64,000 nt of DNA from Acetobacteraceae bacterium (GTDB taxonomy: Bacteria; Pseudomonadota; Alphaproteobacteria; Acetobacterales; Acetobacteraceae), in NCBI GenBank assembly GCA_009693865.1, contig SHWL01000003.1, positions 20,657 through 84,656 on the forward strand, written 5' to 3'. Below the pieces are notes generated by a model. That model saw only the letters and a list, made by a program, of their open reading frames with translations. It was not told the origin of the DNA and ran no database searches. The position numbers and the translations under genes are program-made. Shown here in pieces: positions 2,480 through 64,000 of this stretch; position 1 is the first letter of the stretch; each line of letters starts with the position of its first letter.

Positions 2480-2709
2480 TTGGTGTTCCCCCTTGAGCGG
2501 CCGATGATGCGGGCAGGTGCCGTGGTGTCAAGCCGTCGCGTTCGACCTGGGCAGTGGGCTATTGACTGTCGGTCTCCCTCGTGACTTGGCCCGGGAGAGG
2601 ACGAAGGACTCCGGTGGAGCTGAACTCAATGATCGGGATGCCGACTTACCGGCACCTTCCCTGGCCGGGACGACATTGGTAGCGTCATGCGCGATGCGGA
2701 GGGAATAAC

Positions 2710-3174
2710 GTGCCGAACGATCCAAAGACATCACCCTTTTGGCCGGCTGACAATCCCGCAGTTACGGGCCACATCACCCTGCTACAGGGGATCATCACCC
2801 GCCTCGCAAACAACAGCGCCTCCTGCAAGACATGGTGTCTGACACTGGTCGCCGCGCTGCTCAGCGTCGCGGGCACGGCCCACGCACCGCGGATCGTGAC
2901 CGCCGCGCTGGTCCCCGTGCTGGTCTTCGGTTTCCTTGACGTGATGTACCTCGCCACGGAGGTCGCCTATCGGAACCTATACGAGACCGTCGTGGACTCG
3001 ATCCGTGCGGGGAGTTACGACAGAGCAAGGGTCTTCGAAGCCCGCGCCCGCCCGGATGCCGGTTGCGTGATCTGGGCTGCCGCGTCGTGGTCGGTCGTGC
3101 CGTATTATGTGCTGGTCGTGTTTTACGTCGTCGCGTTGATGCAGGGGTGGCTGGCGTTGCTGGCGGCGAAGTGA
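2710..3174 (+). CDS. Small membrane protein, SLATT-like (two TM segments)
   Basis: 154 aa, GTG start after GGAGGG; 'ITRLANNSASCKTWCLTLVAALLSVAG' plus second hydrophobic segment; stop directly abuts the next ATG. Confidence 0.7.
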   Translation: MPNDPKTSPFWPADNPAVTGHITLLQGIITRLANNSASCKTWCLTLVAALLSVAGTAHAPRIVTAALVPVLVFGFLDVMYLATEVAYRNLYETVVDSIRAGSYDRARVFEARARPDAGCVIWAAASWSVVPYYVLVVFYVVALMQGWLALLAAK

Positions 3175-4467
3175 ATGGCTGATCCACCTGTATTTTTCTT
3201 TTCGTATTCGCGTCAGGATTACGAGGATTCCGGCGCGTATATGAGGGAGTTTTACGACGGCCTGGCGAGACGCGTCGCACGCGCTGCCTACCCGCCACGG
3301 GCACCCGACGACGTTAGCACGCTCGACATCCTGACAAAGTTCGGTGACGATTGGCAAACACACCTTGGGAACGCGCTCGCCGCAAGCAATGTGCTGATCG
3401 CGGTGATTTCGCCACCTTACTTCTCCCGTCCTGACTGTGGTCGGGAGTTTGGCGGATTCATCCTCCGCAGCCCCAATTTGGGGATCGACGCGCAAGGGCA
3501 ATTGACCGGAGTTAACAACGTATTCCTGATCCGCTGGATGGAGTCGGGTTTCTACAACCGGCCCGATCAAAAAGACGGCCGGATTCCGTCGTTCATCCGC
3601 CGAATCAACGATGCGCTGCCAGCCCCCGCGAACGCCAATGCGGACCCCGAACTCGCCGAGGCGGTTCGAAACTACCGGCAATTCGGCATGGAGCTATGCG
3701 TCGACAAACCGTACTACAAACGTTTACTGAACGCACTGGTACTGGCGATCGTCAACGCCACGCCCCTCCAACCGGCCGCACCGCAAAACTGGGACGACCT
3801 GATCGACGCCTTCCGACACGACTGGGGAGCGCATTTCAATGCCGCGCAGGCACAGCCGCCTGAACTGGTCCCGGTAGAGCCTCTCACCTCGGCGGTCATC
3901 GTCTATGTGACAGGACGGTCGTTCCAGATAAGCCCGGCCTCGGCTCAGTTCGCAGCTCGTTTGATTGCAGCGCCCGTGCCGGACGGAACCGGCACCGACC
4001 CCGAGCTGGGATCGCTGATACTGGACATGCAGGCTGCCGCGTCGCCAGAGATATTGCAGGCGCTCGCTTGCGTTGGGGAGCCGGTCATACCGGCGGTGGC
4101 GGCACCGATGATTGAATTGTTAGCGGACCTTTCACTGCGCCGTGTTTTACCACTGTTGGTGATCGATGCCGGAACCCTCATTGGACAGGCTCTTCCCGTT
4201 TTGCGGGAAATCGTGGATTCTGAGGTCTGGACAGGACCGGTATTGATCCCCACCTTTCCGGGTACTCCCGCTGATGCGGATCAGTTCCTCGATTCACGGC
4301 AAAGGCCAGTGTATATGTTGCCCGGAGCCCGGGATGCGCGAAGGACCATTGTGACCAGCATCTTGCTCAACCTGCGCCGTCAGGTCACTGCGGCGGCGCG
4401 GCTCGAACAGCCCGTTTCTGGAGATCCGATGCCACTGCTGCGTGGCCCAGGAGACAGCCGGAGATGA
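3175..4467 (+). CDS. TIR-domain (FxsC-like) protein
   Basis: N-terminal 'FFFSYSRQDYEDSG' and 'VLIAVISPPYFSRPDCGREFGGF' typical of TIR folds, with a Glu in the Cys-x-x-Glu position; long C-terminal extension. Confidence 0.85.
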   Translation: MADPPVFFFSYSRQDYEDSGAYMREFYDGLARRVARAAYPPRAPDDVSTLDILTKFGDDWQTHLGNALAASNVLIAVISPPYFSRPDCGREFGGFILRSPNLGIDAQGQLTGVNNVFLIRWMESGFYNRPDQKDGRIPSFIRRINDALPAPANANADPELAEAVRNYRQFGMELCVDKPYYKRLLNALVLAIVNATPLQPAAPQNWDDLIDAFRHDWGAHFNAAQAQPPELVPVEPLTSAVIVYVTGRSFQISPASAQFAARLIAAPVPDGTGTDPELGSLILDMQAAASPEILQALACVGEPVIPAVAAPMIELLADLSLRRVLPLLVIDAGTLIGQALPVLREIVDSEVWTGPVLIPTFPGTPADADQFLDSRQRPVYMLPGARDARRTIVTSILLNLRRQVTAAARLEQPVSGDPMPLLRGPGDSRR

Positions 4468-6188
4468 CGTCCGCGCACCCGCCTGGACAGATCGTCACCT
4501 TCTACTCCTACAAGGGCGGTACCGGCCGGTCGATGGCGCTCGCCAACGTGGCCTGGATTCTGGCGGCTAACGGCGCACGGGTTCTGGTCATCGACTGGGA
4601 CCTCGAAGCGCCTGGGCTGCACCGCTATTTTCGCCCCTTCCTGACCGATCCAGATCTTACGGAGACCAAGGGGCTGATCGACGCGTTCTGGGATATGACG
4701 GCGGTTCAGGTCGCGCGGGCTAACGGCCGGCGATCAGACCGAGTGCTGGAGACTGCCTCCGCCGGACCCGGCGGAGGCACCATGGCCAGGGTGGCGTCCG
4801 AGGAGCCTGAGCCGCCCCACCTTGGGCCGCTACTACTGAGTGTGACGCGGCGGTTGCGTCACAAGTTGACGGTAGCAAGAAAAGTTTCTCTGGCGTCGTC
4901 AAAGGATGACGGAGAGGATGACGACAAACTGTTTTTGGGTGACGGTTATATCGATTTCATCGGCGCGGGACGGCAAGGTGGCGCCTATAGCGAGCGCGTC
5001 AATACGTTCGACTGGCGCGGTTTCTACGAACTTGGCGGCGCCGCGATGTTGAGCGAGGCGACCGAAGTGCTCCGTACGAAGTACGACTGGGTGCTGATCG
5101 ATAGCCGCACCGGCGTCTCCGACACGTCCGGCATCTGCACGATGCAGATGCCGGACAAGGTTGTGGCTTTCTTCACACTGAACCGGCAGAGCACCGAAGG
5201 GGTTACGTCGGTTCTGGCGTCGATCCGGGCTTGGCGGGCAGACCATCCCAAATTGCCGCCGATTACATTCTTTCCAGTAGCGACTCGGATCGAGAACGCC
5301 GAAAAAGATAAGCTGGACGCGGCTCGGCTGCATTGCCGGTCGGTGTTGCAGTCATACCTGCCGGAAGGCACGAGGGATCAGGAATCTTACTGGAACCAGA
5401 TGGAGGTTGCCTATCGGCCCTGGTACTCCTACGAGGAAGTCATCGCGCCATTCGGCGATCAGACGGGGCCGGCGCGTACGCGGGACAGTATGTTGGCGCA
5501 GATGGAGATCATCGCGCAGACGATCAGCGGATCCCCAAGGCAACTTCGCTCGCCGGACGTATCGGCGGCTGAGCGAAGCGAGGTGTTGTCGCAATTCTCG
5601 TTCGATGGCGGGAAACCTTCAACGGCCGTTACCCGACCGGCTGTTCGGGAACTCGAACCACTGATGAAGGGCCTTCTACGCAAGCGTGCACTGTGGGAGA
5701 ATAGTGGAAAGCATTATCGTTTGTTACTTAGTAGGAATGAAATGGCATATTTGTCAGGACGGGCAACTGTTTCCGAAACTCCTGAAATATCGGATTACGT
5801 CAAAAACAGCGAAAAAATCCACGAGATACTTAAGCGGAATAGACGCTGGATGCCAAGAGCCATTACAATCACCTTATACGTCATGGTGCCTTTGGCAACA
5901 GCTCGGTTATTTTACTTACCTTTTGGTTTCACCGCCGACACGCTCGTTAAGGACATCCTTGTAAGAATTGGTGCCAGCCTCGACTCTTTGATATCTACCG
6001 AATCGGTGGTATTGGTCGGCACGGCCTGGGTCTTGGTAGGATTCCTGGAAGGAGCCTGGGGCTCGCGACAGGGTGCCTTTCCAGATGGAATGACATTCGT
6101 TCAGTCCCTTCAGTTGTCTATGCGCGGCCCCTTCCAACCTGAGATTCGAGACTATAGTATACTGGATGAGCCGGGTGGCGCAAGATGA
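4464..6188 (+). CDS. KGGxGR-type SIMIBI/ParA-like ATPase with C-terminal TM segments
   Basis: 'IVTFYSYKGGTGRSMALANVAWILAANGARVLVIDWDLEAPGLHRYF' deviant Walker A; 'WVLIDSRTGVSDTSG'; two C-terminal hydrophobic segments; ATGA overlap with TIR gene. Confidence 0.88.
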   Translation: MTSAHPPGQIVTFYSYKGGTGRSMALANVAWILAANGARVLVIDWDLEAPGLHRYFRPFLTDPDLTETKGLIDAFWDMTAVQVARANGRRSDRVLETASAGPGGGTMARVASEEPEPPHLGPLLLSVTRRLRHKLTVARKVSLASSKDDGEDDDKLFLGDGYIDFIGAGRQGGAYSERVNTFDWRGFYELGGAAMLSEATEVLRTKYDWVLIDSRTGVSDTSGICTMQMPDKVVAFFTLNRQSTEGVTSVLASIRAWRADHPKLPPITFFPVATRIENAEKDKLDAARLHCRSVLQSYLPEGTRDQESYWNQMEVAYRPWYSYEEVIAPFGDQTGPARTRDSMLAQMEIIAQTISGSPRQLRSPDVSAAERSEVLSQFSFDGGKPSTAVTRPAVRELEPLMKGLLRKRALWENSGKHYRLLLSRNEMAYLSGRATVSETPEISDYVKNSEKIHEILKRNRRWMPRAITITLYVMVPLATARLFYLPFGFTADTLVKDILVRIGASLDSLISTESVVLVGTAWVLVGFLEGAWGSRQGAFPDGMTFVQSLQLSMRGPFQPEIRDYSILDEPGGAR

Positions 6189-6231
6189 AGCGCTTCGCCC
6201 GAGGCGAGAGCCAGCACATGCCATTCAGGCG

Positions 6232-6588
6232 TCAGCGTACCCGCGAAACCTCAGGCAAAATCCTGGTCACTAACGGCAAAACCTGCCCCATCCAGACCGC
6301 GTTGATCGTGTGATCATCCCTCGGGCGGCCGGACTCCGGATGCAACAGGATGGTCAGCCCGTTCTGGTTCATCATCAGAAACGGCGCCAACGCCGGAAAC
6401 CGATCGGTCTCGAACGCGATTTGGTACATCGCCTGAGGATGCGGGCCGACAGGCACATCGTGCCAGCGGCCCATTTTCATGGTGAACCGCTGCTCCACCG
6501 CCTCGCGCAATGCCGCGGCCCGCGGCCGGCTCACAGCGTCATAATAAACATGGGCGTGGTAGGCTTTGATCCGGGCCTGATCGATCAT
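6232..6588 (-). CDS. DOPA 4,5-dioxygenase-family protein
   Basis: 118 aa with 'YHAHVYYD', 'GPHPQAMYQIAF', 'NGLTILLHP' motifs. Confidence 0.8.
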   Translation of the reverse strand: MIDQARIKAYHAHVYYDAVSRPRAAALREAVEQRFTMKMGRWHDVPVGPHPQAMYQIAFETDRFPALAPFLMMNQNGLTILLHPESGRPRDDHTINAVWMGQVLPLVTRILPEVSRVR

Positions 6589-8111
6589 GATTCCTCCAGC
6601 ATGCGCTTCACGTCGCGCTTCACCACTTTGCCGTAGCCGGACTTCGGAAGTTCCGGCCAGAAGACGTACGAACCGGGGTGTTTATAGCGGGCGAGCTTGC
6701 CTTCGACATGCGCGGCCATTTCCTCGGCGGTGACAGACGCGCCAGGAGACCGCACCAGCACCGCGACACCGGTTTCTCCCCATTTTTCGTGGGGCATTCC
6801 GACGACGCAGACTTCGGCCACCGCGGGATGGGTCAACAGCAGTTCCTCGACCTCCCGCGGATAAACGTTGGAGCCACCGGAGATGTACATGTCCGATGCT
6901 CGCCCCGTGATGTAGACAAAGCCGCGCGCATCCATGTGGCCCAGGTCGCCGGTGTGAAACCAACCATAAAGGGTGGCTTTTTCCGTTGCCTCCCCGTTAT
7001 CATGATACCCCGCGAACACTCCTGGGCCTCGCACGCAGATTTCACCGGTCTCGCACGGCGCCAGATGTGCCCCGGTATCGTCCATGATCGTGACGTCCAT
7101 GCCGGTCCGGGGAAAACCGCAACTGCCAACGGGCATCTCATCATCGTTGAGACTATGACACGATGGTGGCAGCACGGTGATGTTGCCAGTCACTTCGCCC
7201 ATGCCGAAATATTGCACCAGCACCGGACCAAGTTTCTCCAGCGCGTGTTTCTGATCAGCGCGGTACATCGGCGCACCCGCGTAAATCACGTGGCGAAGGC
7301 TGGAATGATCGAATTGATCCACCGATTCGTGCCGGGTCAGCATCGTCAGGATCGTCGGCACGGTGAACATGTTGGTGACGCGATGCCGCTCCACCAGGCG
7401 CCAGGCTTCGGCCACGTCCAGCCGTTCACTTGGCATCAGCACCGTGGCGGCGCCGCGCGCGACCTGCGGCAAGGCGTGGATGCCGGCGCCGTGGGACAGC
7501 GGCGCGACCACCAGAGAGGCGTCATGCTCGGTCGTTCCAGGCATCAGGTCGCACAGATGGTTGCAGATGACGTATTCCATCTGACCGTGTGTCAGCACAC
7601 CTGCCTTCGGCCGGCCGGTGGTGCCGGAGGTGTAAAAGAACCACGCGGGATGGTCGCGATCGACATCGGCGGGACGGGCGATCCGATCGCCGCCGGTGGC
7701 CATCGCTTCCCAGTCTCCAGGAATGGAAATCTCTAGCCGGCAGGCCGGATTTTCCGCCTTCGCGGCGGCCGCGTGATCCGGAAACGCGCTGTCGAAAATG
7801 TGCACCGAAGCCCCGGAGGATAGCGCGAGATACGCGACCTCCGGCGGTGTCAGGCGGAAATTGGTCGGCACCCAGGTCGCCCCCAGCATCCAGGTGGCGA
7901 ACATGGATTCCAGGACGGCGTTGGAGTTACGCGCGTGCACCAAAATCCGGTCGCCGTGCCGCACCCCACGCTTCGCCATTGCCCCCGCGGCGGCCTGGAC
8001 CCGGGCATTGAAATCGGACCAGGACCAGGTTGTGTCGCGCCAGACAATCGCCGGGTGATCGGGAAATCGCCGCGCCGATTGGATGAGCAGGTGCGCCAGG
8101 TTGGAGGTCGG
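6585..8111 (-). CDS. Acyl-CoA synthetase / AMP-dependent ligase
   Basis: 'FYTSGTTGRPKAGVLTHG', 'YGWFHTGDLGHMD', 'SGYGKVVKRDV'. ORF track extends to 8342 but this overlaps the thiolase; true start near 8111 is uncertain and non-ATG. Confidence 0.88.
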   Translation of the reverse strand, partial: PTSNLAHLLIQSARRFPDHPAIVWRDTTWSWSDFNARVQAAAGAMAKRGVRHGDRILVHARNSNAVLESMFATWMLGATWVPTNFRLTPPEVAYLALSSGASVHIFDSAFPDHAAAAKAENPACRLEISIPGDWEAMATGGDRIARPADVDRDHPAWFFYTSGTTGRPKAGVLTHGQMEYVICNHLCDLMPGTTEHDASLVVAPLSHGAGIHALPQVARGAATVLMPSERLDVAEAWRLVERHRVTNMFTVPTILTMLTRHESVDQFDHSSLRHVIYAGAPMYRADQKHALEKLGPVLVQYFGMGEVTGNITVLPPSCHSLNDDEMPVGSCGFPRTGMDVTIMDDTGAHLAPCETGEICVRGPGVFAGYHDNGEATEKATLYGWFHTGDLGHMDARGFVYITGRASDMYISGGSNVYPREVEELLLTHPAVAEVCVVGMPHEKWGETGVAVLVRSPGASVTAEEMAAHVEGKLARYKHPGSYVFWPELPKSGYGKVVKRDVKRMLEES

Positions 8112-8113
8112 AA

Positions 8114-9286
8114 TTATCGCAATGGCTCCAGAATGGACACATAGTTGGCGACCGCCGCGCCGCCCATGTTGAACACGCCTCCGAGATCCGCTTTCGGCAA
8201 CTGCATGCCGGCCGGCGCCTCGCCCGCCAGTTGCATCGCCGTGATCGCGTGCATCGACACACCCGTCGCGCCGATCGGATGGCCCTTCGCCTTGAGACCG
8301 CCCGAGGGATTGATCGGCAGCCTGCCGTCCTTCTGCGTCCACCCTTCCAGAATTGCGCGGGCGCCTTGGCCGGGAGCCGTGAGGCCCATCGCCTCATACT
8401 CGATCAGTTCAGCGATCGTGAAGCAGTCATGCGATTCGACGAAGGACAGGTCTTGCAGTTTGATGTCCGCCGCTTTCAGCGCCTGTTGCCAGGCCTGTGC
8501 CGCACCCTCGAACAACGTGATGTCGCGCTTGCTGATGGGCAAGAAATCGTTGACCTGAACGGCGGCTTTGAAGCGGATGGCTTTGCCCATGGCGCGGGCG
8601 GTTTCCTCGTCGGCGAGGATGAGCGCGGCCGCGCCATCCGACACGAGCGAGCAATCGGTGCGCTTCAACGGCGGGGCGACGTAGGGGTTTTTGTCGGAGA
8701 CGTTGCGGCAGAAGTCGTAACCCAGGTCTTTGCGCATCTGAGCCCAGGGATTGTCGACGCCATTTTTGTGGTTTTTCGCGGCGATGGCGGCCAGGGCGTC
8801 GGATTGATCGCCGTGCCGCTGGAAGTATTTCTCCGCGATCCTGCCGAACACGCCCGCGAAACCCGCGGGGATGTCGGCTTCTTCCTTGTGATAGCTGGCT
8901 TTGAGCAGGATATCGCCGATCTCTTTGCCGGGGGTCGCGGTCATCTTCTCCACCCCGATCACCAGGGCGAAGCGTCCGCGGCCACTGAGCAGGAAGTCGC
9001 GCGCGCCGTGGATCGCGGCCGAGCCCGAGGCGCAAGCGTTTTCATACCGGGTAATGGGGCGGTAGCGGAGTTCCGGCAAATGTTGCAGCACCAGGGAAGA
9101 CGGAAAGTCCTGGTTGGAGAAACCGTTGTTGAACAGGCTGAGGAAGGTGCCCTCGATCTCATGCGGGGCAATGCCCGCGTCCGCGATGGCGGCGCCGGCG
9201 ACGCGGCCGATCAGGGATTCGATATCCGGATCCTCAAGCTTACCGAAGGGTGAATGGGCCCAACCAACGATGCAGGCTTCGGTCAT
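8114..9286 (-). CDS. Thiolase family protein (acetyl-CoA acetyltransferase-like)
   Basis: 'ENACASGSAAIHGARDFLLSGR', 'VESHDCFTIAE', 'NPSGGLKAKGHPIGATG'. Confidence 0.92.
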   Translation of the reverse strand: MTEACIVGWAHSPFGKLEDPDIESLIGRVAGAAIADAGIAPHEIEGTFLSLFNNGFSNQDFPSSLVLQHLPELRYRPITRYENACASGSAAIHGARDFLLSGRGRFALVIGVEKMTATPGKEIGDILLKASYHKEEADIPAGFAGVFGRIAEKYFQRHGDQSDALAAIAAKNHKNGVDNPWAQMRKDLGYDFCRNVSDKNPYVAPPLKRTDCSLVSDGAAALILADEETARAMGKAIRFKAAVQVNDFLPISKRDITLFEGAAQAWQQALKAADIKLQDLSFVESHDCFTIAELIEYEAMGLTAPGQGARAILEGWTQKDGRLPINPSGGLKAKGHPIGATGVSMHAITAMQLAGEAPAGMQLPKADLGGVFNMGGAAVANYVSILEPLR

Positions 9287-9463
9287 GGTTGTGTCTCCTG
9301 TCAAACCGTTCAGGCGGTTTTACCGCATGGACGCGAGGCTGGCGATGGGGGCGAAGCCGCCAGGTGGAAATCAGGGCGTGGCACTGTTCAATCCATGAAC
9401 GCGTGCGGATTTGGGTGAGCCTCATAAGCATGATATAGTATGACACTGAGAAGGAGGGCCCTC

Positions 9464-9739
9464 ATGGCCAAGATCGAACGTCTGACGATCACTTTGCCGT
9501 CCGAAATGGCCGCCGTGGTGAGGGGAGCTGTCGAGCGCGGAGACTACGCGTCCAGCAGTGAAGTGGTGCGCGAGGCGATCCGGGATTGGAAGGCGAAACA
9601 GGCGCTGCAACTGAAGGAAATGGAATCGCTCAAGGCCGATATCGACAAGGGCTTGACCGATCTGGCCGAAGGCCGCGTGCAAGACTTCGACGCCGCCCGC
9701 ATCATTGAGCGCGGGAGGAAGTTATTAGCCGCCCGTTAG
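9464..9739 (+). CDS. parD: ParD-family type II antitoxin
   Basis: 'MAKIERLTITLPSEMAAVVRGAVERGDYASSSEVVREAIRDWK' RHH fold; RBS aaggaggg upstream. Confidence 0.88.
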   Translation: MAKIERLTITLPSEMAAVVRGAVERGDYASSSEVVREAIRDWKAKQALQLKEMESLKADIDKGLTDLAEGRVQDFDAARIIERGRKLLAAR

Positions 9740-10088
9740 CGCTTCGTCTTACAGCGGCCGCGGAGGATGACCTCGCCGAAATCTGGGCTTACATCGCCTC
9801 CGAAGCGTCCGAGGAGGTAGCGTCCCGGTTTATCATGGCGATCGAAGCGGCGCTCGAACCTGTAAGGTATTTTCCGTTCGCGGCGCCGGGTCGGGAGGCG
9901 TTCGGGCCGGGATTGCGGGTTGCGTTTCATGGGTCGTACGCGATTTACTACCGGCCCTTGAGGATACGATCGTTATCGTCCGCGTGTTGCATGGTGCTCG
10001 GGATGCGGCGGCAATTGCCAGACGCAGGGGTTTTCGGTGTGATACAGGGTGTTACCGCCGGTGTCAGGAGGCTTCCAACCTGTTTTGA
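9721..10088 (+). pseudogene. parE: ParE-family toxin, decayed
   Basis: Translation gives 'VISRPLALRLTAAAEDDLAEIWAYIASEAS..PVRYFPFAAPGREAFGPGLRVAFHGSYAIYYRPL' then, after a shift at about 9955-9960, 'EDTIVIVRVLHGARDAAAI'; no ATG/GTG/TTG between the upstream in-frame stop and the conserved N-terminus. Confidence 0.75.
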
Positions 10089-10107
10089 CGCCGACCCCAC
10101 GTGATCA

Positions 10108-10857
10108 TTACCCCGCCGTCCACCCCCCATCGATCACCAGGCTCTGCCCGGTCATGTAAGCCGACGCATCCGACGCCAGGAACACCACGCCGCCGGCCAT
10201 GTCGTCCGGCCCGGCGAAGCGGCCCATCGGGGTGCGGGCCTTCAGGCGTTGGCCGTGCACATCGTGCTCCAGCAGACCATGCGTCAGATCGGTATCGACC
10301 CACCCGGGCGCCAGCGTGTTGACCCGCACGCCTTTGGAAGCCCAATCCAGTGCCAGGGCTTTCGTCAGCATCTCGACGCCGCCCTTGGACGCGCAGTACG
10401 GCACCGAGCGTAACAACCCAGTGTGTCCCGCGACCGAACTGACATTGATAACCGAACCGCCTTGAGTCATCGCGCCACCGATATATTTGCAGCACAGGAA
10501 CACGCCGGTCAGATTAACGTCGATGATCTCTTGCCATTCAGTCAGGCTCGTACGCTCGATCCCCTTGAAGATCGCGTTGACGCCCGCGTTGTTCACGAGA
10601 ACGTCGATCTTACCAAAATGCGCCAGCACCGCGTCGCGCAGCGCGATGACATCCGCTTCCTTCGACACGTCGGCGGTCTGAATGAAGGCGCGCTCGCCGA
10701 ACGATTCCGCCGCCTCCTCCAGTGTCGTCCGGGTGCGGCCGGTCAGCACGACAAGGGCGCCATTCCGAGCCAGCCCCTCGGCCATGCCGCGGCCAATGCC
10801 CCGGCCCGCGCCGGTGACGACGCAGACCTTGCCGGTCAGATCGAAATCGCCACTCAC
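10108..10857 (-). CDS. SDR-family oxidoreductase
   Basis: 'GKVCVVTGAGRGIGRGMAEGLA', 'LVNNAGVNAIF', 'YCASKGGVEMLTKALALDWASKGVRVN'; GTG start overlaps ACAD stop. Confidence 0.92.
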   Translation of the reverse strand: MSGDFDLTGKVCVVTGAGRGIGRGMAEGLARNGALVVLTGRTRTTLEEAAESFGERAFIQTADVSKEADVIALRDAVLAHFGKIDVLVNNAGVNAIFKGIERTSLTEWQEIIDVNLTGVFLCCKYIGGAMTQGGSVINVSSVAGHTGLLRSVPYCASKGGVEMLTKALALDWASKGVRVNTLAPGWVDTDLTHGLLEHDVHGQRLKARTPMGRFAGPDDMAGGVVFLASDASAYMTGQSLVIDGGWTAG

Positions 10858-54062: not shown

Positions 54063-55202
54063 TCAGGTCGCGAAGGCCGGCATGACGTCGCGGGCAAACC
54101 AGCGAAGCTGTTCCTCGAACACCGAAGGGGACAGGCCCTCAGCCCAGTGGACCATGAAATCCTCCATGCCGGGGTATTTCGCCTCGATCGATTTGATCCC
54201 ATCGATCACCTGTTGCGGTGAGCCACAGAACCACGCCTTCTGCGCCACGCCGTCGCGCAAGGACGGAATTCGAGCGGGCGCGCCAGGCGTACCCCAGGTG
54301 CGGCCAGTTTCATCGGCGTAGCGGACGAAGCCGAACGGCGCGAACCATTTATATCGTTCGTCATGCGCGGGCTCGATCTCGCGGATCGCTTCCTCCTGGT
54401 CTTTCGCCAGATAAATCCCAGCGCCCCAGATCATGTCCTGGCCGAGTTGCTTGTCACGGCCATGCGCCGCGCAGGCCTCGTGATACGCCCGCACGACATC
54501 GTCGAGGATTTTTTCGCCGTTCAGCACCACCATCGCCTTCAGGTCGTATTTCGCCATCATGTCGATCGTCCGGCCGCTGGCGATCGGCATGTAGATCGGC
54601 ACGGGCCGGTTGATCGGCCGCGGGACGAGGGTGATCTCCTTCAATTTATAGCCGCGGTAGTCGACCTCGGGCGGGCATGTGAAATGCTTGCCCTTGAAAC
54701 TAAAGGAGTCCTCGTTGAAGGCTTTCAGCAGCAGTTGCACACCCTCCTCGAACACCTCGCGATTCTTATCGGCGTCGATCAAGGGGCCGCCGAACGTTTC
54801 CACCTCGCGCGTGTGGTAGCCACGGCCCACGCCCATGATGACGCGGCCGCCGGTCACGATGTCGGCCATCGCGTAATCCTCGGCGAGGCGCAGCGGATGC
54901 CACATCGGCAGCACGTTGAAGCCGCAGCCGAATTTCAGCCGTTCCGTCTGCGTGGCGAGCCAAAGGCCAAGCTGGATCAGGTTCGGCAGGCACTCATAGC
55001 CTTCGTGCTGAAAATGATGCTCGGCGGTCCACAGCGCGTGATAGCCGGTTTCGTCCATTGCGCGGGCCATACGGCGCGCGGTCCAGAACACCTCGGCGAA
55101 CCGGTCGTTGGTGTACCGGCGATCGTTGGCGGGCGTGCCCTGAAGGCCGATATTGTCGAGGTCGATCTGTCCGACATACAGCACGTGAAAACGTTTGATC
55201 AT
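54063..55202 (-). CDS. LLM-class flavin-dependent oxidoreductase (luciferase-like)
   Basis: 'TGYHALWTAEHHFQHEGYECLPNLIQLGLWLA', 'GGRVIMGVGRGYHTREVETFG'. Confidence 0.92.
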   Translation of the reverse strand: MIKRFHVLYVGQIDLDNIGLQGTPANDRRYTNDRFAEVFWTARRMARAMDETGYHALWTAEHHFQHEGYECLPNLIQLGLWLATQTERLKFGCGFNVLPMWHPLRLAEDYAMADIVTGGRVIMGVGRGYHTREVETFGGPLIDADKNREVFEEGVQLLLKAFNEDSFSFKGKHFTCPPEVDYRGYKLKEITLVPRPINRPVPIYMPIASGRTIDMMAKYDLKAMVVLNGEKILDDVVRAYHEACAAHGRDKQLGQDMIWGAGIYLAKDQEEAIREIEPAHDERYKWFAPFGFVRYADETGRTWGTPGAPARIPSLRDGVAQKAWFCGSPQQVIDGIKSIEAKYPGMEDFMVHWAEGLSPSVFEEQLRWFARDVMPAFAT

Positions 55203-55232: not shown

Positions 55233-56711
55233 TCACGTCTTGACCGGTGGGCCAACCTGACGCCGCGGCATCATCGGTGCCGCCGGAATTGAACTGACAT
55301 CCACGGCTGGCATCGCGAAGTTGATCTCCTTCAGCACCGCGTTGGCGAGTTCGTTGTACCTCCCAAAACTCCGCCGCAACCGCGAGCGCCAGATCGGAAT
55401 GCCCCCGTTGGCGTGCAATTCATACACCGACTCGCGCGCATCGAGCGAAGAACCAACATGATCCCACGCCATCTGCAACAACGCCGCGCGCTGCCTCGCG
55501 GAGTAACCGCCGCCGCTGAACGATTCTTCCAAACCCGCGCCAACCTCGGCGGAGGCGAGATCGGTGTCCGAGGGTGCGACGATCAGCGACGAGCCCGGCA
55601 GGATCCGCAACGTTTCCGTCAGCCGCTGGCGCGCGTTCAGCATCGCGATGCTGCCGACCGCGATGTGATCATGATTGGTGTAGCAATAACCTTCCGGCGT
55701 GAAGCTCGGGTCGAGTTCGGCCGCGATCAGACAGGTGCGGACCGTTTGCACATCCGTGATCATGTCGATCAGCAACTCGATCGTCGGCGCCTGCTGCGTC
55801 AGGCCCATCGCGTCCGCCAACGCGAGGCCAAGGCCAAGCGCGAAATCTCCCTTCGCGAGCCAGCAATAGAGTTGATGCCAGAACAGCCAGCGCGCGATCG
55901 GATCGAGATTGGCATCGAGGAAGAACAACCGGTCATTCGGAATGAACACGTTGTCGAACCACATCTGGCCGTCCAGCTCATCGTTGCGGGACGACAATGG
56001 AGACAGAAACGGGTTGGGGTCGCGCACGGAAACCTTGCGGCACAGGACCGTGACCCCCGCCGCGTTGATCGGCACGATGAAAGTGACGCGATGCCCGTTG
56101 TGCTCGCACGACGAATTGGCCCCGACATACACGTCCTCGGCGTACGCTGGGCTGGTGTGCATGCCGACCTTGCCACTGATGAACAGCCCCTCCGGCGTTT
56201 CCTTGACAACGCGCAGCGCGTTGCGTTCGGCGGGATCGGGACGCAGACGGTAGCCGATCGTGGCGGCGCCGGAGGAAAAGGTCAGGAACCGGCCGGTCTC
56301 GGCGACCGACGCCCGGTACGCGGCGGCGTTTTCGATCTGCGCCGGGAACTTGCCATACGCCCGCACGGTCGTTTCGACGCCCAGGGCAATCAGGTGGCCG
56401 TAGGCGGGCGTATGCGTGACGTTGCCCGCGTTGATGAACGTGGTGGCGGAGTAGCTACGACCGAGCCGCCGCAGATCGGCCGCCGAGCGTGGCAGGATGC
56501 CCCAGACCGGCGTGCCGGATTCAGTGACCAGGGTTTCGCGCCAGGCGAGGTCGAAGTGGCGGTCGTACCAGGTGACGTATTCCTCGACCATCGCGCTGGT
56601 CGCCGGGTGCGTCGCCACGTCTTCCACCAATCCGTCGTTCATCACCCAGATCCGGCGGCCATCGCGCAGGGATGTCCGGTAGTCCACGCCTGTCCGCATC
56701 GTCGTCTCCAA
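55233..56711 (-). CDS. 4-hydroxyphenylacetate 3-hydroxylase-family (HpaB-like) flavoprotein
   Basis: 'DYRTSLRDGRRIWVMNDGLVEDVATHPA', 'MWFDNVFIPNDRLFF', 'EESFSGGGYSARQRAALLQMAWDHVGS'. Confidence 0.88.
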   Translation of the reverse strand: METTMRTGVDYRTSLRDGRRIWVMNDGLVEDVATHPATSAMVEEYVTWYDRHFDLAWRETLVTESGTPVWGILPRSAADLRRLGRSYSATTFINAGNVTHTPAYGHLIALGVETTVRAYGKFPAQIENAAAYRASVAETGRFLTFSSGAATIGYRLRPDPAERNALRVVKETPEGLFISGKVGMHTSPAYAEDVYVGANSSCEHNGHRVTFIVPINAAGVTVLCRKVSVRDPNPFLSPLSSRNDELDGQMWFDNVFIPNDRLFFLDANLDPIARWLFWHQLYCWLAKGDFALGLGLALADAMGLTQQAPTIELLIDMITDVQTVRTCLIAAELDPSFTPEGYCYTNHDHIAVGSIAMLNARQRLTETLRILPGSSLIVAPSDTDLASAEVGAGLEESFSGGGYSARQRAALLQMAWDHVGSSLDARESVYELHANGGIPIWRSRLRRSFGRYNELANAVLKEINFAMPAVDVSSIPAAPMMPRRQVGPPVKT

Positions 56712-56891: not shown

Positions 56892-58319
56892 ATGGCGGAC
56901 GAGTCACTCGCGTTCATGCCGGCCACTGAACTGGCGGCGGCCATCCGCGCGCGGCACGTCTCCCCCGTGGAGGTAGCGCGTGCCGCGCTTGACCGGATCA
57001 TCCGCTCGCAACCAACGCTGAACGCCTTCATCACCATCGCGGAGGAGCAGGCGATGGATCAGGCGCGGACAGCCGAGGCGGCGTTGATGCGAGGCGAACC
57101 CGTGGGACCGTTGCATGGCGTCCCGGTCGCGGTGAAGGATCTGGTTCCGACCGCCGGGATTCGCACGACCTGGGGCTCGATGATCTTCAAGGACCATGTC
57201 CCGGACGCCGATGCGATCGTGGTGACGCGCCTGAAACAGGCGGGCGCGATCATCGTCGGAAAAACCACGACGCCGGAATTCGGCCAGCAATGCCTGACCG
57301 AGGCGCCGTTGTTCGGCCGCACGCGCAACGCCTGGCGAGATGACCGCACCTCGGGTGGCAGTTCCGGCGGCTCCGCTGTCGCGGTGGCATCCGGGCTGAT
57401 TCCGTTGGCCGTGGCGACGGATGGCGGCGGCTCGACGCGCATCCCGGCGGCGTGCAACGGGCTGGTCGGGTTCAAGCAGGGGCTTGGGGTGGTGCCTCAG
57501 GAATACGCCCAGGATGGGTTCGGCAATATTTCGTATATCACGCCGATGACGCGAACAGTCGCGGACACCGCGCTCATGCTCAGCGTCATGGCTGGGCCGG
57601 ATCTTCGCGATCCGCTTTCGACCGGGCGCCCGCCGGGGAACTTCATCGCCGCCGCCTCCCCCGACGGAGACCTGGCCGGGTTGCGCATCGCCTGGCGTTC
57701 GCGGCTTGGCAACCACGCCGTCGCGTCGTCAGTTTCGTCCGCCTGTGCGGCGGCGCTCGGCGCTCTGGCGGAATTGGGTGCAAACGTGACGGAATCGACC
57801 AGCCCATTCGAAAACCCGGAATCGGTTTGGTTCGTGAACAACGGCTCCTACAGGCGCGCGCAATTCGGCCACCATTTGGAGCGGCACCGCGCGATCATGT
57901 GTCCAACCTTCGTCCGCCAGATGGACCGGGTCGCGTCATACAGCGCCGCCGAACTGTACGAGGCGATTTTCGCTCGCACCCGGTTGTACCGCCAGGTCCA
58001 GACCTGGTTCGAGACCGCCGACATCGTCGCCATGCCGACCTTGTCCCGGCCCGCATTGCCGATCGATCAGGACTTCTTCGGCCCGATCGAGATCGACAAC
58101 CAAAGCGTCGAGAACATTCGTGCCGCCTGGTATCCTTACACAATGCCGTTCAATCTGACCGGCAACCCGGCGGTCAGCCTGCCATGCGGCTTCGACGCCG
58201 CCGGCATGCCGCTGGCGATCCAACTGGTCGCGCGTCCCGGAGAGGACGAACGCCTGTTGCGGGTGGCCGCGCTGTTCGAGCGGGCGCGACCTTGGGTCGA
58301 CCGCCGCCCACCGGTCTGA
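56892..58319 (+). CDS. Amidase (amidase-signature family)
   Basis: 'GVPVAVKDLVPTAGIRTTWGS', 'GGSSGGSAVAVASGLIPLAVATDGGGSTRIPAACNGLVGFK'. Confidence 0.95.
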   Translation: MADESLAFMPATELAAAIRARHVSPVEVARAALDRIIRSQPTLNAFITIAEEQAMDQARTAEAALMRGEPVGPLHGVPVAVKDLVPTAGIRTTWGSMIFKDHVPDADAIVVTRLKQAGAIIVGKTTTPEFGQQCLTEAPLFGRTRNAWRDDRTSGGSSGGSAVAVASGLIPLAVATDGGGSTRIPAACNGLVGFKQGLGVVPQEYAQDGFGNISYITPMTRTVADTALMLSVMAGPDLRDPLSTGRPPGNFIAAASPDGDLAGLRIAWRSRLGNHAVASSVSSACAAALGALAELGANVTESTSPFENPESVWFVNNGSYRRAQFGHHLERHRAIMCPTFVRQMDRVASYSAAELYEAIFARTRLYRQVQTWFETADIVAMPTLSRPALPIDQDFFGPIEIDNQSVENIRAAWYPYTMPFNLTGNPAVSLPCGFDAAGMPLAIQLVARPGEDERLLRVAALFERARPWVDRRPPV

Positions 58320-58484
58320 CTGCCGCTGGTACCACGCTGAAGCGCAGGCATGATGTCATGCCCATGGCTACGCGCCTTGCCGCGAACGATCCTGCGAGAT
58401 GCCTCGGCGACCTCGTCTGACACCGTTCCGAGCGCGCGATCGCCGGGACGTGGCACGAGCGAGGGCGTGGCCTGAAATCCATGC

Positions 58485-60005
58485 TCATTCACCTGACATC
58501 AGGCGGGCTTTCAGAACGTTCCGTCGCACCTTGCCCGTCAGGGTACGCGGGAACCGGGCGGTATAATGGGCGGCGAACGTCACGACGTGCCGCCGCAACA
58601 ATGCCACGAGGCCGGCGCCGATTCGCTCGTCAAGCGCTGGATCGCTCCGCTCGATGAACACGTGCAATTCGCCAATTCCGAGCGAGTTCTCAAGCCCTGT
58701 CATAACCGCGCCGGTAACATCCGGGAGCGCCTTTATTTGCTCTTCGATGAGGTAAGGGGCGATCTTGAGCCCACCCACGATGATCATTTCGTCGGCGCGT
58801 CCAAGCACAATGAGTTTACCGGGTTCGGGGATGATGCCCAGGTCGCTGGTGCGAAACCAGCCGTTGGCGAAACTTCGCGCGGTTTGCTCGTCGTCCCAAA
58901 GATAATGGGTGTTCATGTGAGGCAACCGAACCACGATGATCCCTGGCTCGCCCGCCGCCTTGGGAGTTCCATCGTCATCCACGATCATGGCCGAGACATC
59001 GGGTAGCAAGGTTCCGATATCGGTTTCTTCCATGATGGCGACAGACCCGGCCTCGGTCGATCCGTAGAGACCTATCACGTCGTTCGTCAGATTCTTGCGT
59101 ATCGCCGCGCGCAACGGCACGGACACCGGGCCGCCGAATATCCGGATCGAGCACGTATCCGCCCGTTGCGACGACGCGGATATTTCCGATATCAGACGGA
59201 ACGCATCTCCAACCAACAGAAACGAATGACAAGCGGGAAGCATCCGGATGGTCGTGAGAAAATCATTCTCATTGCAATAGGTCGCCGATACACCCTGCCG
59301 GAGCGCCAGAATGGTATCGGCATACGTGTTTTGCACACTGAACCGGTAGGCCGCCACAAAGTGGTAGCGCCGCCGGTCGTACTTCAAAGTGTATTCGACG
59401 CTCCGATGCTTCGTGGCCACTGAACGCGGCGTGTCGTAGGTGAATTTCTTGCTGCCGGTGGTCCCCGATGTTGGGCCGATTCGGAGAATCGAGTCCGGTG
59501 AGTAACCGGCGTCAAGCGCCTGTAACGCGCTGGCCGTGACCTCGATCGTCGAGATATCGTCCAGCAGACGCGACGAGAGTTCAATCGCGCAAGGATGTCT
59601 AGCGGTGGATTCGGTCGTCGTCTCGATGCACAACATATCGCATCGCTTCAACAACTCGTCATCGCCGGTCAGATCGGATGGGGCCAGCGATAAGTGACTC
59701 GCGCCGGTGACCTCAGTGGCAAGGATCAAAACCAGTTGCGAATATTGCAACTCACTTTGAATGCCGATCACCATCCCCGGCCGGAGCCCTCCCCGCCGCA
59801 GCATCACGCCCGCCTGAACGATGTGCGTCGCGAGCGCCCTGTAGGACCATGACATCACGCCTTCGACGACCGCGACCGCGTCAGGCGTCTCGCGCGCCCA
59901 TCGCGCCACCGCCTGGGCGCCGATCGCCAGATCTTCCGCCGTCAGGCTTGTGTCCGGCGTGATCCCAGCCGGCGCGCGGCCGTCTGGTGAGTTTGGTAAA
60001 GTCAT
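58485..60005 (-). CDS. ANL-superfamily AMP-binding protein, paralog 1
   Basis: 'GPTSGTTGSKKFTYDTPRS', 'YGSTEAGSVA', 'NGWFRTSDLG', 'LTGKVRRN'. Confidence 0.9.
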   Translation of the reverse strand: MTLPNSPDGRAPAGITPDTSLTAEDLAIGAQAVARWARETPDAVAVVEGVMSWSYRALATHIVQAGVMLRRGGLRPGMVIGIQSELQYSQLVLILATEVTGASHLSLAPSDLTGDDELLKRCDMLCIETTTESTARHPCAIELSSRLLDDISTIEVTASALQALDAGYSPDSILRIGPTSGTTGSKKFTYDTPRSVATKHRSVEYTLKYDRRRYHFVAAYRFSVQNTYADTILALRQGVSATYCNENDFLTTIRMLPACHSFLLVGDAFRLISEISASSQRADTCSIRIFGGPVSVPLRAAIRKNLTNDVIGLYGSTEAGSVAIMEETDIGTLLPDVSAMIVDDDGTPKAAGEPGIIVVRLPHMNTHYLWDDEQTARSFANGWFRTSDLGIIPEPGKLIVLGRADEMIIVGGLKIAPYLIEEQIKALPDVTGAVMTGLENSLGIGELHVFIERSDPALDERIGAGLVALLRRHVVTFAAHYTARFPRTLTGKVRRNVLKARLMSGE

Positions 60006-61477
60006 GATATTTGGCTCAATCGGTCGTGCAGCAGGTTCCGCTGGACCTTGCCCGTCTGCGTCCGTGGCAGGCGGGTGGCATAATGGGCGGCGAACGTCGA
60101 GACATGCCGTCGAAGCGATGCCACGAGGGCCTGACCGATCCGTTCGTCATGCGTTGGATCGCCCCGTTCGATGAACACGTGCAATTCGCCGATGCCAAGC
60201 TGGTTCTGGAGGCTCAACAGAACCGCGTCGCTGACCCCTTCGATCGATTTGATTTGTTCTTCGAGTGGATAGGGCGCGACCTTGATCCCTCCAATGTTCA
60301 GCATGTCATCGACGCGTCCCATGAGGACAAGCTTACCCGGCGCCAGGTACAGACCTATATCGTTGGTGCGAAACCAACCGTCGACGAAACTCTGGGCGTG
60401 CGCATCGTCGTCCCACAGATAGCCGCCGCTCACACGAGGCGTTCGTACCATGATGATCCCCGGCTCGCCGTCATGCCGTGTTTGCCCGGTTTCATCGACG
60501 ATCCTGATCTCGGTGTCCGGAAGCAAGACACCAACATCGCCGCCGTCGAACAATGCGATGAAACTGGTCTCATTCGACGAATAGCTGCCTCTCACTTCGG
60601 TCGTGATGTACGTTCTGATTGAGGTTCTGAGGGACGGCGACAAGGCGCCACCAATGACGCGGATGGAACAAGAATCGACCCGCCGCGACAATCGTGACGC
60701 GTTGGCCACCAATTGAGGCACATCGCGCAGCACCAGAAATGTATGGCAACCCGGGAGTTTTTCCATAGCCGGAAGGATATCTTCTCCCGTGCGGAAATAT
60801 ACCGTCAGGCCGTACGACAAGGCCAGCATGGTATCGGTGTATGTACTTCTTTGGCTGAATCGGTAGCCTGACACGAAGGGAAAGCGCGTCTGGTCATCCT
60901 TCAGAATATGCTGGACGCCCCGCATGACATGCCAAAGCGAACGTCGCGTGTTGAACATGAACTTCCGGCGGCCGGTTGTACCGGACGTGGATCCTATGCG
61001 GACCACCGCGTCCGGGGGTTGAACGGTTTCCAGCATGGTCACCGTACTGCCGCCGACAGGGGTCCGCGCGAGATCGCCAACCATGCCCACCGGAAGCAGT
61101 AGCACGTTCCCGTGATCAACGGCGCTTCCCTGCGCCATCTCGACGCACAGAAGATCGCACCGCGCCATTACCTCCGGCGCCGCGGCCAAATCGGAGGGCG
61201 CGATCGACATATGAACCGCGCCAATGACTTCGCTGGCCAGGATCAGAACGAGGTGCAAATACTGAATGTCGCATTCGATCCCAACGATCATTCCGGCTCG
61301 CAGGCCGCTCGCTCGTAACATTTCGACAGCCCGCGCGACATTCCACGCAAGCGCTTCATAGGTGTGGTTTTCGCCATTCTCCGTGACCGCGATGGCGTCC
61401 GGGGTCGCGACGGCCCACCTCGCTATCGACCTCGTGTTCGTCATCCCGGGCATGTCATCCACCATCGGATGTTCCAC
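60002..61477 (-). CDS. ANL-superfamily AMP-binding protein, paralog 2
   Basis: 'GSTSGTTGRRKFMFNTRRS', 'YSSNETSFIA', 'DGWFRTNDIG', 'QTGKVQRN'; ATGA overlap with paralog 1. Confidence 0.9.
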   Translation of the reverse strand: MEHPMVDDMPGMTNTRSIARWAVATPDAIAVTENGENHTYEALAWNVARAVEMLRASGLRAGMIVGIECDIQYLHLVLILASEVIGAVHMSIAPSDLAAAPEVMARCDLLCVEMAQGSAVDHGNVLLLPVGMVGDLARTPVGGSTVTMLETVQPPDAVVRIGSTSGTTGRRKFMFNTRRSLWHVMRGVQHILKDDQTRFPFVSGYRFSQRSTYTDTMLALSYGLTVYFRTGEDILPAMEKLPGCHTFLVLRDVPQLVANASRLSRRVDSCSIRVIGGALSPSLRTSIRTYITTEVRGSYSSNETSFIALFDGGDVGVLLPDTEIRIVDETGQTRHDGEPGIIMVRTPRVSGGYLWDDDAHAQSFVDGWFRTNDIGLYLAPGKLVLMGRVDDMLNIGGIKVAPYPLEEQIKSIEGVSDAVLLSLQNQLGIGELHVFIERGDPTHDERIGQALVASLRRHVSTFAAHYATRLPRTQTGKVQRNLLHDRLSQIS

Positions 61478-61606
61478 TGAAGATCCCTCCCTGAGGCTTG
61501 AATGCCATGACGGACGCGGTTGAAAGCAGTGACGCGGCCTTACTCCGCCCAGCCCGCGCGATCGCCGCGGCAGGGAACGGGTCAGGAGGTGACCAGGAGT
61601 CCGCGG

Positions 61607-63097
61607 TCACGTGCCTGGCGCCAGGCGGGCTCTCAGAACGTTCCGCTGGACCTTGCCCGTCTGGGTGCGCGGAAACCGGGCGGCGTAATGGGCGGTGAAC
61701 GTCGAGACATGCCGCCGAAGCGATGCCACGAGGGCCTGACCGATCCGTTCGTCATGCGTCGGATCGCCCCGTTCGATGAAAACATGTAATTCGCCGATAC
61801 CAAGCTTGTCCTGCAGGCTTAGCAGAACGGCATCGCTGACCCCGTCGATCGATTTGATTTGTTCTTCGAGTGGATAGGGCGCGACCTTGATCCCTCCAAT
61901 GTTCAGCATGTCGTCGACGCGTCCCATCACGACAATCTTACCCGGCGCCGGGGTCAGACCTATATCGCTGGTGCGGAACCAACCGTCGGCGAAGCTCCGC
62001 GCGTTCGCGTCTTCGTCCCACAAATAGCCCCCGCCCAGGCGAGGCGATCGCACCATGATGGTTCCTGGCTCGCCCTCCTTCCGTGTTTGTCCGGTTTCAT
62101 CGACGATCCTGACCTCGGTATCCGGAACCAGGGTGCCAACATCGCCATCGTCGAACAACGCGATGGAGCCGGTCTCGTTCGACGAATAGCTGCCTCTCAC
62201 TTCGGTCGTGAGGTGCTTTCTGATTGACGTTCTGAGCGACGGGGACATGGCGCCACCAATGACCCGGATGGAACATGAATCGACTCTCTTTGACGATAGC
62301 GACGCGTTGGCCACCAATTGGGGTACATCGCGCAGCACCACGAATGTGAAGCAGCCCGGAAGTATTTCCAGGATCGGGAGTATATCTTCTCGCGTGCGGA
62401 AATGCACCGCCAGGCCGTGCGCCAATGGCAGCATGGTGGCGCCGTATGTACTTTTTTGGAGAAACCGGTAGCCCGAGACGAAAGGATACCGTGTCTGGTC
62501 GTGCTTCAGAATATACTGGAGAGCCAGCCTGATATGCCAAAGCGAACGGCGCGTGTTGTACATGAACTTCCGGCGGCCCGTCGTACCGGACGTGGTCCCT
62601 ATGCGGACCGCGACATCCGGCGGCTGAATGGCTTCCAGCATGGCCATCGTGCCGTCCGCCGCGGGGCCTCGCGCGAGATCGCCAGCCATGTCGCGCGATA
62701 ACGGTAGCACTCGACCGTGATCGAAAGAGATGCCATTCGCCGCCTCGGTGCACAGCAGATCGCACCGCGCCGCGATCTCGGGCGCTGACACCAAATCGGA
62801 CGCGGCAATCGACATATGAACCGCGCCGATTACTTCAGCCGCCAGGATCAGAATGAGGTGCAAATACTGGATGTCGCATTCGATCCCAACGATCATTCCG
62901 GTTCGCAGGCCGGCCGATTGCAACATTTCAACCGCCCGCGCGACATTCCACGCAAGCGCTTCATAGGTGTGGTTTTCGCCATTCTCCGTGACCGCGATGG
63001 CGTCCGGCGTCGCTTGAGCCCACTGCGCTATCGACCTCGTGTTCGTCATCCCTGGCATGTCATCCGCCATTTGATACTCCGTCGGAAATCCATCCAT
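61607..63097 (-). CDS. ANL-superfamily AMP-binding protein, paralog 3
   Basis: 'GTTSGTTGRRKFMYNTRRS', 'YSSNETGSIA', 'DGWFRTSDIG', 'QTGKVQRN'. Confidence 0.9.
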   Translation of the reverse strand: MDGFPTEYQMADDMPGMTNTRSIAQWAQATPDAIAVTENGENHTYEALAWNVARAVEMLQSAGLRTGMIVGIECDIQYLHLILILAAEVIGAVHMSIAASDLVSAPEIAARCDLLCTEAANGISFDHGRVLPLSRDMAGDLARGPAADGTMAMLEAIQPPDVAVRIGTTSGTTGRRKFMYNTRRSLWHIRLALQYILKHDQTRYPFVSGYRFLQKSTYGATMLPLAHGLAVHFRTREDILPILEILPGCFTFVVLRDVPQLVANASLSSKRVDSCSIRVIGGAMSPSLRTSIRKHLTTEVRGSYSSNETGSIALFDDGDVGTLVPDTEVRIVDETGQTRKEGEPGTIMVRSPRLGGGYLWDEDANARSFADGWFRTSDIGLTPAPGKIVVMGRVDDMLNIGGIKVAPYPLEEQIKSIDGVSDAVLLSLQDKLGIGELHVFIERGDPTHDERIGQALVASLRRHVSTFTAHYAARFPRTQTGKVQRNVLRARLAPGT

Positions 63098-63211
63098 GGC
63101 GCCGGCCCGCCATCGCGGAGAAGGTTGAGTTCGGCGGCCTGGGCTGGCACCGTTCCGCGCGCGCGATCGCCGGGACGTGGAGCGAACCAGGAAGTGGCCT
63201 GAAATCCATGC

Positions 63212-63850
63212 TCATTTGCCTGGCGCCAAGCGGGCCTTCAGAGCATTCCGCTGGACCTTGCCCGTCAGGGTGCGCGGAAATCGCGTGGCATAATGGGCGG
63301 CGAACGTCATGACATGCCGCCGCAGCACCGCCACCAGGGCCTGGCCGATGCGTTCATCGAGCGCCGGATCGCTCCGTTCAATGAACACGTGCAGTTCCGC
63401 GACGCCCATCTCATTGGCGTGGCTCATCAGGACCGCATCGTTGATACCTTCGATGGTCCTGATCCGTTCCTCAATTGGGTAGGGCGCCAATTTGATCCCG
63501 CCTATGTTGATCATGTCGTCAGCCCTGCCGATCACGATGAGCTTGCCGGGCGCTGGCACCACGCCGATGTCGCTGGTTCGAAACCACCCATCGATGAAAT
63601 GCTTTCGGGTTTCATCGGCATTCCAAAGGTAGTGAGAACCCATGCGCGGCGACCGCACCATGATGGTGCCGGACTCCCCCATGTTTCTCATTTTGCCATC
63701 GTCATCGACGATCCGGACCGAGACATCCGGAAATAGCTCCCCGACCCCGCCGTCATCGGCTATCGATATATAGCCAGTCTCATTCGAAGAATAGGTGGAA
63801 ACGACTTCGTTGGTGACGCTTGCTTGCAACTCCGCGCGAAGACGCGGTGG
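63212..63850 (-). pseudogene. ANL-superfamily AMP-binding protein, paralog 4, 5' end disrupted
   Basis: C-terminal half only ('YSSNETGYISIAD', 'DGWFRTSDIG', 'LTGKVQRN'); homology stops at about 63850 where IS-like sequence begins. Confidence 0.85.
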
Positions 63851-64000
63851 CAGCCCCCTGTGTCAGAGAAGTTGCCGCCCGGATAGGATCAAGACCTCAG
63901 GGGGCGCTGGAAGACGAACATGGCTCGGTATGGACAGACGTTTAAGGACAACGCGGTGGCGCGACTGCTGCCGCCGCAGAGTTGCCCGGTAGAGGCGCTT
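63851..64000 (+). mobile_element. IS element left end with transposase N-terminus (truncated by window edge)
   Basis: ORF from 63920 'MARYGQTFKDNAVARLLPPQSCPVEAL', HTH-transposase-like; preceded by end-proximal inverted repeat CAGCCCCCTG..CAGGGGGCGCTG. Confidence 0.72.

Follow-up and report, generated by a model that had tools for sequence, protein, structure and literature searches.

The stretch of DNA analysed here (the window) comprises the last 64000 bases of C199, an 84656-base contig from a draft genome of 209 contigs that is about 81% complete. Close to its end, the minus strand carries a head-to-tail row of three complete genes for ANL (class I adenylate-forming) enzymes and the 3' fragment of a fourth. 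Copy 1 (58485..60005) encodes 506 amino acids, with TSGTTGSKKF at the A3 motif and YGSTE at A5; copy 2 (60002..61477) encodes 491 amino acids, with TSGTTGRRKF and YSSNE; and copy 3 (61607..63097) encodes 496 amino acids, with GRRKF and again YSSNE. All three are intact and match the Pfam AMP-binding model at 84.6-95.4 bits (gathering cut-off, 29.9). Only the last ~213 codons of copy 4 (63212..63853) are present. This layout had been proposed in an earlier reading of the letters and their open reading frames (the sequence-only reading), and both the ORF coordinates and the Pfam matches agree with it. The A5 strings, the A10 TGKV lysine and the N-terminus common to copies 2 and 3, whose proteins are 78% identical (copy 1 is 47% identical to either), were likewise confirmed, as were the duplicated 3' flanks of copy 1 (58393..58484, minus strand) and copy 4 (63120..63211, minus strand). 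On the other hand, the statement that all copies carry a variant A3 holds for copies 1-3 but not for copy 4, in which the A3 region is absent.

Further repetition is evident within the array. The start of copy 1 and the stop of copy 2 overlap in an ATGA, and a 300-nt block near the 3' end occurs four times, with 73-100% identity and spacings of 1517, 1605 and 1605 nt, far beyond chance. The array faces a convergent gene for an amidase-signature protein (56892..58319, plus strand), followed by genes for an HpaB-type flavin hydroxylase (55233..56711, minus strand) and a luciferase-like monooxygenase (54063..55202, minus strand). The link of these neighbours to the array is putative.

Copy 4 had appeared to be truncated by the window edge alone. 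Instead, bases 63854..64000 (plus strand) are the end of an insertion sequence, including the first part of a transposase-like ORF, and the contig ends within it. These bases are repeated at 16 other places in the genome with 99-100% identity, at least seven of which begin at base 1 of a contig, and their plus strand encodes MARYGQTFKDNAVARLL..., which to the eye looks like a transposase N-terminus. Since this element is multicopy, and since the 22 bases immediately preceding the junction match the corresponding region of an intact gene on another contig, C105, we conclude that an insertion sequence interrupts copy 4 and that the assembly breaks inside that repeat. The 5' half of copy 4 was not found elsewhere in the draft genome.

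C105 (10.7 kb) carries two more copies, bringing the total in this genome to six, four of them intact. The first (191-1501) is broken, an internal deletion having taken out ~50 codons, part of A5 among them, and has a Cys in its P-loop (TSCTTGHRKF); the second (1498-3018) is intact, with GARKF at A3 and YSSNE at A5. The two are joined by the same ATGA overlap as copies 1 and 2 of the window. Just after the intact gene the sequence again resembles the beginning of an ANL copy, likely a trace of unequal recombination.

The ratio dN/dS lies between 0.20 and 0.39 in every pair of copies, broken ones included, and all pairs are thus under purifying selection. Among copies 1, 2, 3 and the intact C105 copy, synonymous divergence (pS) drops in the last 70 codons to 0.39-0.49, versus 0.61-0.68 elsewhere, in five of the six pairs; in four pairs it is below any other window of the same length (uncorrected permutation P 0.001-0.04). 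Neither the young pair of copies 2 and 3 nor a second array, found in genome G561, shows this drop. The low 3' divergence, taken with the duplicate flanks that copies 1 and 4 share, suggests local gene conversion or recombination at the 3' ends in this genome. The check for gene conversion put forward in the sequence-only reading gave a mixed answer, with 3' ends that look homogenised in most pairs but not in pair 2/3. The view of a family of stand-alone adenylating enzymes with no assigned substrate, expanded by tandem duplication, was supported; with two of the six copies broken, however, the array shows decay besides expansion.

A maximum-likelihood tree was computed with 34 members of the family and 35 ANLs from outside it. 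The family forms one clade (support 100/97), within which the four intact copies of the window genome form one subclade (100/99). A separate subclade (100/100) unites the four G561 copies, three of them in tandem, which makes the two expansions independent of each other; tandem pairs also occur in G014 and G616. At least two genera have thus each seen a tandem expansion of their own. None of the NCBIfam ANL models (MatB, MenE and FadD types, benzoate-CoA ligase, DHB-AMP ligase) reaches its curated cut-off with the array proteins, for which the best score was 144 bits against a cut-off of 476 (cut-offs being 317 and above), whereas three ordinary ANLs in the same window pass at 822-868 bits. 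Placement within a characterised acyl-CoA ligase subfamily, set in advance as the outcome that would count against an unassigned family, was therefore not obtained, the scores falling far below the cut-offs and the structural neighbours being evenly mixed among classes.

Distribution was counted with strict thresholds among genomes sampled at the genus, family, order, class and phylum levels. Members were found in 11/33 genomes of the genus; in 11/300 genomes (~4%) and 5/102 genera of the taxonomic family; in 13/397 genomes of the order, all 13 within the same taxonomic family; in 3/385 genomes of the class; and, among 399 genomes of the phylum, in the window genome only. On these counts, the family is narrowly distributed and lineage-restricted, occurring almost nowhere outside its taxonomic family. 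A plasmid search gave generic matches only, at <30% identity, and we found no description of such an array in the literature. The description that fits the array best is an ANL subfamily that is uncharacterised, restricted to one lineage and in birth-and-death evolution, and not a new kind of system.

The catalytic Thr, Glu, Asp, Arg and Lys of A3, A5, A7, A8 and A10 are kept (copy 4 of the window being without A3), and T173, E308, D378, R393 and K482, in the numbering of copy 3, are invariant or nearly so in the 34 members. Most of what surrounds them differs from 34 other ANLs used as comparators. The Gly after the A3 Lys is found in 0/34 members versus 28/34 comparators; at A4, Pro occurs in 0/34 versus 33/34 and His in 0/34 versus 32/34; the A5 Thr is kept in 2/34 versus 25/34, the family mostly having Asn instead; and the A7 Gly is present in 3/34 versus 33/34. 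At A8, Asp and Lys stand where the comparators mostly have Lys and Asn, and at A9 the Lys (0/34) and Pro (3/34) found in 33/34 comparators are replaced. The VGxPDxxWGE stretch after A8, typical of CoA ligases, is absent. Consequently, the family does not carry the sequence signature of acyl/aryl-CoA ligases (P..H at A4 and K..P at A9).

The non-canonical A3, initially taken as the hallmark of the array, is indeed present in copies 1-3, but it loses weight against known enzymes. A3 is also without the Gly in E. coli EntE (TGTPKL) and MenE (TGLPKA), and the A3 Pro is absent from FadD (TGVAKG) and five other comparators. Because these E. coli enzymes depart there too, the A3 change alone means little; it is the least telling of the family's motif changes and is not diagnostic on its own. 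For the same reason we rejected the idea that the variant signals inactivity or a special mechanism. In 4-chlorobenzoate:CoA ligase, mutating the Pro of the motif has been reported to abolish activity (PMC8388817), but E. coli FadD carries Ala at that position.

An AlphaFold model of copy 3, built from a 27-sequence alignment, displays a full two-domain ANL fold (mean pLDDT 81.9, pTM 0.79), which is thus predicted with good confidence. With this model, Foldseek retrieved solved ANL enzymes of many classes (best TM 0.76-0.83, ~20% identity), and a profile search of PDB sequences returned NRPS domains, CoA ligases and AMP ligases mixed. Since no structural class stands out, the substrate cannot be read from resemblance. 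MatB, the oxalyl-CoA and feruloyl-CoA synthetases, and the 4-chlorobenzoate and 4-coumarate:CoA ligases share the fold (best TM 0.76-0.83), the catalytic T/E/D/R/K and a similar length with the family, but at ~20% identity, and the family replaces their A3 Gly, A4 Pro and His, A5 Thr, A7 Gly and A9 K..P. NRPS adenylation domains reach comparable profile scores (113 and 142 bits for two LgrA domains), whereas the family is stand-alone.

The substrate pocket gave no firmer indication. A prediction of the pocket had been proposed, and its positions were mapped onto GrsA by motif anchors, but they point to no substrate: the Asp of amino-acid-activating domains is absent from the mapped pocket positions, and the equivalent of GrsA residue 235 is variable (L, S, S and N among the four intact copies), so that no substrate can be read off. 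We did not see faster change in the pocket among the paralogs either, the motif-anchored positions differing to roughly the same extent as the remaining sequence. The sequence-only reading had noted that no carrier or condensation domains accompany the array, and this was borne out, with no carrier domain on the two array contigs (C199 and C105) and no condensation domain in the draft genome. The genome search for cognate carriers did retrieve stand-alone carrier-like ORFs, but on contigs C174, C142, C195 and C21 rather than beside the array. The array thus has none of the marks of NRPS alpha-amino-acid adenylation domains, namely the Asp at the 235-equivalent and accompanying carrier and condensation domains.

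No partner gene is conserved across the neighbourhoods of family members. Protocatechuate dioxygenase and thiolase genes lie beside the ANL gene in G431, and matching sequence indicates the same for G518 and G613; an acyl-CoA dehydrogenase gene lies upstream of the G561 array, a CoA-transferase gene is found in G430 and an enoyl-CoA hydratase gene in G040. These neighbours point to the catabolism of carboxylic acids, often aromatic, with none named. In G137, which is outside the taxonomic family (L139, 8651-12015), a divergent member overlaps an RraA-like aldolase gene that is preceded by a gene for a Rieske ring-hydroxylating oxygenase. This operon-like run of Rieske oxygenase, RraA and ANL could be the best substrate hint.

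Beyond the homology, motifs, common ancestry, expansion elsewhere, purifying selection and decay of two copies that we observe, we propose that the array enzymes are carboxylate:CoA ligases for small, perhaps aromatic or other catabolic, acids, both substrate and acceptor being putative. We give this assignment about an even chance. Tandem duplication of one ancestral gene in the lineage gave rise to the copies; purifying selection acted on some of them as they diverged, and others were lost through a deletion or a mobile-element insertion. Each intact enzyme would convert a small carboxylic acid, plausibly aromatic or otherwise catabolic, and ATP to an acyl-adenylate, which would be passed to coenzyme A. 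We favour this reading because the catalytic residues are kept, CoA-ligase folds match, the family is a single clade with low dN/dS among the copies, the neighbours are catabolic, and no condensation or carrier domains stand by the array. We count against it the lack of a conserved neighbour, the absence of the A4 His, the A9 K..P and the VGxPDxxWGE stretch, and the variable 235-equivalent position.

These missing CoA-ligase features, at A4, at A9 and after A8, are also what favours the main rival, namely that acyl-adenylates are formed but the acceptor is not CoA, being instead a stand-alone carrier protein encoded elsewhere or an amine, as in McbA. According to Clark et al. (PMC6122825), NRPS and FAAL enzymes, which use carrier proteins, do not have the stretch after A8, numbered motif 4 in that study. 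The carrier-like ORFs on C174, C142, C195 and C21 would provide candidates, and amide bond synthetases (6sq8 and 8ppp) are among the structural matches; McbA and the Streptomyces hindustanus ABS are stand-alone ANLs like those of the array and have a similar fold score, at ~18-20% identity. However, no carrier is encoded on the array contigs, no amine-handling partner is conserved, and the A8 GGxK loop is like that of CoA and aryl-AMP ligases and unlike that of NRPS domains. We regard a non-CoA acceptor as rather unlikely.

A second alternative concerns the acid: the orthologues next to trpE would be aryl-CoA or aryl-AMP ligases for anthranilate or a related aryl acid, and the array would by extension act likewise. 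In five closely related species the gene immediately after trpE, in the same orientation, encodes an ANL, and in G040 another ANL copy is followed by a gene for a Pfam Cyclase-family protein. In addition, the best single-sequence PDB matches are the salicylate-AMP ligase CahJ and 2,3-dihydroxybenzoate-AMP ligases of the EntE/DhbE type (~20-22% identity), and the A3 of EntE shares the loss of the Gly. Nevertheless, aryl-AMP ligases are not the top matches with the family profile, EntE falls outside the family on the comparator side of the tree (100/97), itself on a long branch, and no siderophore or carrier genes adjoin the array. The window genome has its trpE on contig C133 with no ANL gene beside it. 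Because the five trpE neighbours probably reflect one inherited event, and because other congeneric species have unrelated genes in the slot after trpE, we downgraded this adjacency as proof of an anthranilate substrate, and we consider the aryl-acid reading unlikely. It is very improbable that the array is no more than a group of redundant duplicates in decay that have kept little function. In favour of this view, two of the six copies are broken, the inserting element has many copies in the genome, and the family is kept in only about one third of the sampled species of the genus; four intact copies, however, retain all catalytic residues, dN/dS is well below 1 in every pair, and intact members persist in several genera.

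Our preferred reading therefore remains that of CoA ligases for small acids. ANL enzymes are normally assigned to named subfamilies by sequence. This clade resists such placement: apart from the catalytic residues, almost all of its core motifs have changed, yet it looks functional. A bolder proposal, which we hold to be unlikely, is that a lineage-restricted subfamily with coordinated A3-A9 changes performs non-CoA transfer (amide or ester formation, or carrier acylation) and has been amplified repeatedly in tandem, with homogenisation of the 3' ends, generating new acid specificities. Tandem copies that descend from one ancestor and differ in sequence offer a natural series on how substrate specificity changes in this superfamily, and the independent G561 array offers a replicate of that series.

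A few additional observations concern the surroundings of ANL genes. A gene for an SBP_bac_5 solute-binding protein lies immediately downstream of an ANL gene, on the same strand, in G045, G561 and G616 (L133, L185 and L186); we keep this linkage in three lineages as a lead only, because the window genome alone has 51 such matches and the count was made post hoc. In four related genomes (L188, L189, L191 and L193) an ANL gene adjoins that of a 1039-1084-aa protein, and the one tested, from L188, has an autotransporter beta-domain. On C105 (L014), the intact copy is followed on the same strand by a gene for a 323-aa protein (3347-4318, plus strand) that is ATP-grasp-like by eye, with no Pfam match at 1e-3. 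Further along, 1.6 kb from the intact copy, a 1941-aa protein (4620-10445, plus strand) contains at least six 120-residue Ig-like (ASH/HYDIN-type) repeats, up to 99% alike in DNA, and a C-terminal Hint_2 domain. Finally, at the opposite end of the window (108-2479), two tandem ORFs of 395 and 394 aa have near-alike N-termini and, by eye, look like FMN-dependent alpha-hydroxy acid dehydrogenases.
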